A DNA stretch of 54,334 nucleotides from a bacterium (GTDB lineage: Bacteria; RBG-13-66-14; B26-G2; WVWN01), in the NCBI GenBank assembly GCA_035529855.1, contig DATKVX010000063.1:1-54334 (forward strand), read 5' to 3'. The notes below the pieces were generated by a model. It was not told the origin of the DNA and did no database searches. It saw only the letters and a list, made by a program, of their open reading frames with translations. Position numbers and translations under genes: made by a program. Of this stretch, positions 30,641-31,535 are shown piece after piece. Position 1 is the first letter of the stretch. Every line of letters begins with the position of its first letter.

Positions 30641-30666
30641 AAAAAAAGAGGGCTTGCGCCCTCTTT
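30641..30666 (-). terminator. terminator of the beta-helix gene
   Basis: Perfect 9-bp stem (AAAGAGGGC / GCCCTCTTT) with a GCAA tetraloop, followed on the minus strand by a run of seven T. It lies 25 bases after the second stop (TAG 30691-30693) of the beta-helix gene. Its placement after the TAG rather than right after the in-frame TGA fits the longer reading frame. Confidence 0.9.
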
Positions 30667-30690: not shown

Positions 30691-31449
30691 CTATTCGAAC
30701 AACGCCTTTACCTTGCCGAAGGACGTCGGCGTTATAGCCGTCGCGTACGGCCTCCCGCCCATATCCTTGCCGCCTTCGCCAGCGCCCCTACAAGGGGAAG
30801 TCGCGGTTAAACCGAAGTCGTTATTCTCGAAGTCTTCGAATAACGGGTCTGCGTGGATTTCTTTTGTGCCGGGGGTCGGTACAAAACTGTACCATGAACC
30901 GCCGCCTCAACCCGGGCAGAAATACATGTAGTTGCCGCCGTAGTTAGATTCGACGTCGTTGTAGAGGATGTTCAAGCTGGTAGTACTCTGGTGCTTCGCG
31001 ATGCCGTACATCGGCGCGCCGGCCTTCGTATTCTTAAAGATGATGTTATTCTTGACGGTTGCGATCGCGTTCATCCATACGTAGACGCCGGTACCACTTT
31101 TGCAAATCGTATTCCCGTCGACGTTAGCGCTGGCACCGTCCGAGACGTAGATCGCTCCCAAGTAGCTGCCGTCTACGAAGCAGCAACCCGTCACGTCGCA
31201 TAGGGTGCCGGGTTGAGAAAGGAATATCTGGCTGCCTTCGAGGTCGCAGAGCGCGCCGTTACCGCGGATGCACGACTTCTTTCCTTGCACCACACCTAAA
31301 CCGCCGGTGTACGTTACTTTGGTATCGAGGACGAGAAGCTTATCGTATCCCTCACCGGGGCCGGCTTCATCGTAAGCGGATTGCAGCGTCTTCGCCAACG
31401 CCGCGGGAACGACGAGCGCTAGCGCTAATAAAACGACTAAGTAACGCAA
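30691..31449 (-). CDS. secreted right-handed beta-helix protein interrupted by an in-frame TGA
   Basis: Start is TTG 31449 with AAGGAGGT upstream; the signal peptide is residues 1-19 (PAALA). Residues 20-180 are Cys- and Asn-rich parallel beta-helix rungs (NTICKSGTGVYV, NNIIFKNTKAG, NILYNDVESNYGGN). Codon 181 is TGA (30907-30909), directly after Cys-Pro-Gly. The same frame then continues for 71 codons to TAG at 30691, encoding the normal end of this class: IHADPLFEDF, then FGLTATSPCRGAG and KDMGGRPY. So the intact protein is 252 residues and a conventional caller would report only 180. Possible readings: Sec insertion giving CPGU, other readthrough, a nonsense mutation, or an assembly error. 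Function is unknown; proteins of this type are exported and often bind glycans. Confidence 0.7.
30878..30909 (-). promoter_or_regulatory. TGA codon plus downstream stem-loop, SECIS-like candidate
   Basis: After the TGA (30907-30909) come 13 bases, then a 5-bp stem GGTAC/GTACC (30889-30893 and 30878-30882) enclosing loop AGTTTT; outer GGT/ACC can add three pairs. The loop begins 19 bases after TGA and has G and U at its second and third positions. The E. coli fdhF SECIS has its loop at almost the same distance, with G in the loop. The bulged U of fdhF is absent. Suggestive only. Confidence 0.4.
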
Positions 31450-31535
31450 AGTACTTCACCTCCTTCCTTCCATTTGCGTTGGGCGCTACAACGACTAGGA
31501 GCACGCCTTTTTGCCAACTTATCTCCTTATAAAAG

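Follow-up and report, generated by a model that had tools for sequence, protein, structure and literature searches.

An in-frame TGA conserved across a family of predicted exported beta-helix proteins is very probably read as selenocysteine

The window (the whole stretch of 54,334 nucleotides that was analyzed) contains a beta-helix gene with an in-frame TGA, which raises the question of whether this codon ends the protein or is read as selenocysteine (Sec), and what such a residue might do in a beta-helix protein. The frame starts at TTG 31449-31447 and has 180 open codons before TGA 30909-30907 (codon 181), which directly follows Cys-Pro-Gly. A preliminary description of the locus had noted that the frame continues beyond the TGA, and re-reading of the frame and its translation confirmed 71 further codons to TAG 30693-30691 that contain the class-typical end motifs ADPLFEDF, SPCRGAG, and KDMGGRPY. 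The codon number and the C-P-G-U motif that Sec would create were also as described, and homologues have TGA at the aligned site. The terminator lies, as had been proposed, 3' of the second stop and not of the first. It is a hairpin (AAAGAGGGC-GCAA-GCCCTCTTT) followed by a T run at 30666-30641 on the minus strand, with a folding energy (-15.1 kcal/mol) as good as which none of 200 shuffles had. A simple terminator scan missed this hairpin, probably because its stem extends into the T tract.

Table 1. Positions of the gene, its parts, and related tandem arrays
Feature	Position	Strand	Basis or details
Putative selenoprotein gene, whole	30691..31449	-	252 residues, predicted Sec at 181, TTG start, TAG stop; full-length homologues
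Ribosome-binding site AAGGAGGTGA	31456..31465	-	Sequence
Probable signal peptide LRYLVVLLALALVVPAALAK	31390..31449	-	Hydrophobic N-terminal segment, also in homologues
N-terminal part before TGA, beta-helix region	30910..31449	-	PF13229 profile match
Cys178, partner in C-P-G-U	30916..30918	-	Homologue alignment
TGA, predicted Sec codon 181	30907..30909	-	In-frame TGA in 65/65 homologues
Putative SECIS hairpin TGGTACA-GTTT-TGTACCG	30877..30894	-	Covariation, folding energy
Post-TGA segment of 71 codons (final strands, C terminus)	30694..30906	-	Conserved in all homologues
Intrinsic terminator 3' of TAG stop	30641..30666	-	Folding versus shuffles
Tandem array	G001:C39 41578-44181
Tandem array	G002:C1 189986-192479
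Tandem array	G004:C1 506888-508565

The genome to which the window belongs (G000; 2.62 Mb, 135 contigs, 97% complete) encodes SelA (L001, G000:C124:49629-50804), SelB, SelD, and tRNA-Sec (66.7 bits, anticodon TCA), so that all four of the genes selA, selB, selC, and selD for which the preliminary description had proposed to search were found. The selB gene appears to be split across two contig ends, with its N-terminal part at the end of C7 and a match to its C-terminal part close to where C111 ends (L003, L010). The selD gene (L036, G000:C25:1102-2025) has an in-frame TGA of its own at the usual N-terminal Sec site (TAAAG-U-AAK), which can be taken as an independent sign of UGA recoding in this organism. 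With selA, selB, tRNA-Sec, and a TGA-bearing selD in the same genome, UGA-to-Sec recoding is therefore expected here. An Rfam search of the window gave no match.

A separate observation concerns SelA itself. In the window's order (L001 and the sequences of G001-G004), the match to the SelA model begins only near position 70, and in other phyla it begins at position 1; SelA of this order may lack the N-terminal domain or have a highly diverged one.

A search of about 830 genomes, together with one collection scan, recovered 65 full-site homologues in 49 genomes. Besides the window's own order, these come from Zixibacteria, Neomarinimicrobiota, TA06, and Planctomycetota, and from one unplaced bacterium. 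An in-frame TGA is present in every homologue, and in each of the 63 that were read directly it falls at the aligned site; the remaining two are known only by the single TGA that the search reported. A sense codon at the site, whether for Cys, Trp, or any other residue, was found in none of the 65, and no homologue with Cys at the Sec site was found across the searched genomes of all these phyla. Cys homologues at the Sec site are a usual means of discovering selenoproteins but are not a requirement. The matches split cleanly into strong ones, all with the TGA, and weaker ones, all of them generic beta-helix proteins without a stop; in the nearest non-Sec relatives (L097 and L108) the entire CxxU loop is absent. 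No relatives of the family were found in viral contigs.

Within the window's order, 12 full-length genes were found in 5 genomes (61 relatives' genomes searched), each with one TGA at the same aligned site. The window's genome has a second TGA-bearing copy (L030, G000:C129:14960-15700), and three related genomes have tandem arrays of two or three copies, all with TGA (Table 1). A scan of genome contigs revealed distant members, in which the TGA is kept, in Zixibacteria, TA06, Neomarinimicrobiota, a Phycisphaerales, and one unplaced bacterium. In phylum-wide profile searches, members turned up in 30 of the 245 genomes of Neomarinimicrobiota, in 8 of the 133 of Zixibacteria (17 genes), and in 4 of the 392 of Planctomycetota. 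None of G000-G004 was among the Zixibacteria matches, which places the window's genome in a different phylum, probably Coatesbacteria or a neighboring one. When 62 members were placed in a tree, they clustered by phylum; the Neomarinimicrobiota, Zixibacteria, and Planctomycetota groups were strongly supported and the inner branches were long, and thus the TGA has been kept over deep divergence.

Because the TGA is in frame in all 65 homologues, and at the same aligned site in the 63 that were read, it is not there by chance. A lone TGA in a long frame of one draft metagenome-assembled genome (MAG) could look like a nonsense mutation, a pseudogene, or an assembly error. However, the same codon recurs in 65 independent genes, spread over 49 genomes and different assemblies, the frame and C terminus are conserved, and two diverged copies within one genome both carry it. 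The probability of such a defect at codon 181 is negligible, and mutation and assembly error were rejected, being ruled out by the TGA-bearing homologues. The preliminary description had named Gly or Trp homologues and a lack of sel genes as the outcome that would speak for mutation or error over recoding; the data are the opposite, with TGA always and Gly, Trp, or Cys never at the site.

The preliminary description had also pointed to a SECIS-like hairpin after the TGA. In the window this hairpin (T-GGTACA-GTTT-TGTACC-G) starts 12 nt after the TGA (z = -3.4 versus dinucleotide shuffles) and carries a G in its apical loop, a short way behind the UGA, as is characteristic of a bacterial SECIS. 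Covariation was evaluated in 28 gap-free aligned Neomarinimicrobiota sequences (A3), in which a six-pair stem with a GUU, GUG, or GUA loop was 95.8% paired, four of the six stem pairs changed on both sides, and there were 25 double-change cells compared to 7 expected. The paired percentage, the double-change cells, and the covariation score were each reached by 0 of 500 shuffles, and when the stem partner was slid by 1 to 3 columns as a control, pairing fell to 26 to 69%. The stem is part of the coding sequence, so that amino acid changes on its two arms are coupled (TPWE versus AECL).

Hairpin energy supported the same element. The mean for all 63 members was -6.1 kcal/mol compared to -2.4 ± 0.3 kcal/mol for synonymous recodings. 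Of 47 members held to a strict GU-loop rule, 36 passed, 32 of these at p<0.05, and typically only about 1% of the remaining codon positions in these genes did equally well. A simple search detected no hairpin in L095, L104, and L107. Unconstrained folding of the 36 nt after UGA gave only a weak signal versus synonymous recoding (mean z, -0.6); hairpin-constrained tests and covariation analysis were required in addition.

The family also occurs together with the Sec machinery. Of the 49 homologue genomes, 48 contained selA or tRNA-Sec, if in some cases only in fragmentary form, and selA was found in all 15 that were tested for it (two as fragments); G238 was the genome in which neither was found. 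In Neomarinimicrobiota, 26 of the 30 family genomes had selA compared to 151 of the 215 others (one-sided p about 0.04), a co-occurrence that is only mildly informative because most of the phylum has selA. Among 24 family genomes examined for tRNA-Sec, 19 had one above the cutoff, and the exceptions were mainly small MAGs and G004 (CP070755.1). The latter carries selA together with two family genes that contain the TGA, and its best matches in the tRNA-Sec search, none of them above the cutoff, were tRNA-Leu; this might reflect an assembly gap or an unusual tRNA-Sec.

The TGA is followed directly by G in 60 of 62 members, as might suit a selenium-free alternative in which it is a conserved leaky stop giving two products or is read as another amino acid, and conserved readthrough sites do exist in general. 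This seems very improbable given the Sec machinery in nearly all of the family genomes, the covarying GU-loop hairpin downstream, the lack of any sense codon at the site, and the exchange of the partner Cys for TGA in one member (L053, see below). Thus, TGA 30909-30907 is almost certainly read as Sec. The organism's own SelA, SelB, SelC, and SelD would decode it, with insertion directed by the bacterial SECIS hairpin that starts about 12 nt downstream. The product would be a 252-residue exported right-handed beta-helix protein with C-P-G-U in a loop that separates two strands at the helix's C-terminal end; it is possible that a truncated 180-residue by-product is made under selenium starvation. 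In this proposal TGA conservation, the covarying hairpin, the presence of the machinery, and the beta-helix model were computed, and we infer export and chemistry.

The protein matched the right-handed beta-helix profile PF13229 (29.9 bits for the part before the TGA and 28.1 bits in a separate search, versus a cutoff of 25.9), and AlphaFold2 gave a confident beta-helix (mean pLDDT 87.9, pTM 0.83) with the CPGU loop between strands 171-177 and 184-187 (residue numbers), near the C-terminal end. The best Foldseek matches among solved structures were PL6 alginate lyases, which were weak (E 6e-3, TMq 0.47-0.52, 16% identity), and a viral fold search gave no significant match. The hydrophobic N-terminal segment was detected in 57 of 63 members; T9SS sorting tails were present in two Zixibacteria members tested and a dockerin in one Neomarinimicrobiota member. 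Together, these features point to export. Searches of NCBIfam 20.0 and Pfam returned generic repeat models only, and that of NCBIfam returned no selenoprotein model for the beta-helix part. The loci L046 and L048 have mixed neighbor genes with no evident partner.

C-P-G-U is present in 38 of 63 members and most of the rest have C-x-[GST]-U, while the planctomycete/Glo_17 clade has C-x-x-x-U. In this clade the four Planctomycetota proteins L055, L110, L111, and L112 are about 700 to 800 residues long, and their beta-helix continues past the site. In L053 (6646-6672, bacterium isolate Glo_17) a second TGA stands in frame four codons before the TGA of the site (FL-U-EYG-U). This earlier TGA aligns with Cys in the related L055 and L110-L112, and L053 probably carries a UxxxU pair; the partner position thus shows Cys/Sec exchange. 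In L107 (G425:C6:3590-4264) the TGA is kept and the partner Cys is lost (DPE-U), and in L091 (CG-U) and L095 (C-U) the Cys is shifted to or nearer the TGA. The partner is lost, shifted, or swapped and the TGA is always kept, so Sec is more conserved than its partner.

CxxU is a recognized redox motif among selenoproteins (PMC13188914), and in an exported protein it suggests a thiol/selenol redox cycle as the simplest reading. We give an even chance to an extracytoplasmic thiol/selenol redox protein that would cycle between the selenol/thiol and a Cys-Sec selenylsulfide, with a peroxide, a disulfide, or another oxidant outside the cytoplasm as its substrate. Because the partner Cys is lost in L107 and replaced by Sec in L053, Sec itself would do the work.

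Two other functions were considered, each as a share of the functional question once Sec recoding is granted. The CxxU might be a site for soft metals (mercury, copper, or cadmium), to which Cys/Sec pairs bind, in a protein exported to bind or deliver them; 20 of 22 members weakly matched the model of NosD, which serves copper enzymes as an accessory protein. This appears unlikely, as the window protein scored below the NosD cutoff (23.1 versus 23.6) and far below that of NosD_copper_fam (12.4 versus 300), and no conserved metal gene adjoins in the loci checked; the NosD matches probably reflect the common beta-helix repeat. It is equally doubtful that the Cys-Sec bond is a structural staple at the helix end of a carbohydrate-binding or -cleaving protein, in spite of the PL6 matches and the dockerin or T9SS tails on some relatives, since a disulfide would serve there and a Cys form, which was not found, would be expected; L107, moreover, keeps Sec without the partner Cys.

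A beta-helix entry is absent from the 2022 list of 87 prokaryotic selenoprotein families (PMC9312934), the 2026 list of 119 (PMC13188914) has none either, and a full-text search, preprints and subscription-only papers aside, found no paper combining beta-helix and selenoprotein. It is very likely that the family is missing from published selenoprotein catalogues. Most known selenoproteins are thioredoxin-like in fold, and Cys homologues exist for almost all of them (PMC13188914, PMC9312934); homology methods seek Cys/Sec pairs, and deep-Sep may fail on or filter out selenoproteins without Cys homologues (PMC12013277). The family would be absent from the catalogues because the methods rely on such pairs.

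These results go beyond the preliminary description in the spread of the family over at least five phyla, in its apparently constant use of Sec, and in its absence from the catalogues. We consider it likely that this is an unlisted, apparently obligate Sec family of exported beta-helix proteins with CxxU (one UxxxU) and no Cys form, from mostly uncultured phyla, which would carry out an extracytoplasmic selenium-dependent reaction in which Cys cannot replace Sec. As a large, widespread, and probably exported case without Cys homologues, in a fold not in the selenoprotein lists, it suggests that catalogues of selenoproteomes systematically overlook families, and it implies that gene callers truncate such genes at UGA. 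It also opens the testable question of why a reaction should need Sec without a Cys alternative.

The bacterial CxxU selenoproteins (SelW-like, GrdA, AhpD-like, and DUF1858; PMC13188914) share with this family a UGA-encoded Sec, a downstream SECIS, and the Cys with two residues between. They differ in having thioredoxin-like or other folds, whereas the window family is a beta-helix, is probably exported, and has no Cys homologues that were found. The Omp28-related selenoprotein (NF045500, GOS_C) has UxxC and a Trx-like fold (PMC2398784), unlike the window family; its model weakly resembles the dockerin-like tail of one Neomarinimicrobiota member, matching the tail only (17 bits versus a cutoff of 200). 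NosD (PF05048, TIGR04247) is likewise an exported beta-helix with a weak profile match, but the window protein is below the curated cutoffs and no Sec is known in NosD. The PL6 alginate lyases, the closest solved structures, differ in their low identity, in the weak significance of the match, and in having no Sec loop. Ordinary right-handed beta-helix proteins (PF13229, TIGR03804), although without the CxxU loop, share with the family the repeat pattern, the predicted fold, and the DPLF...SPC...DIGA ending.
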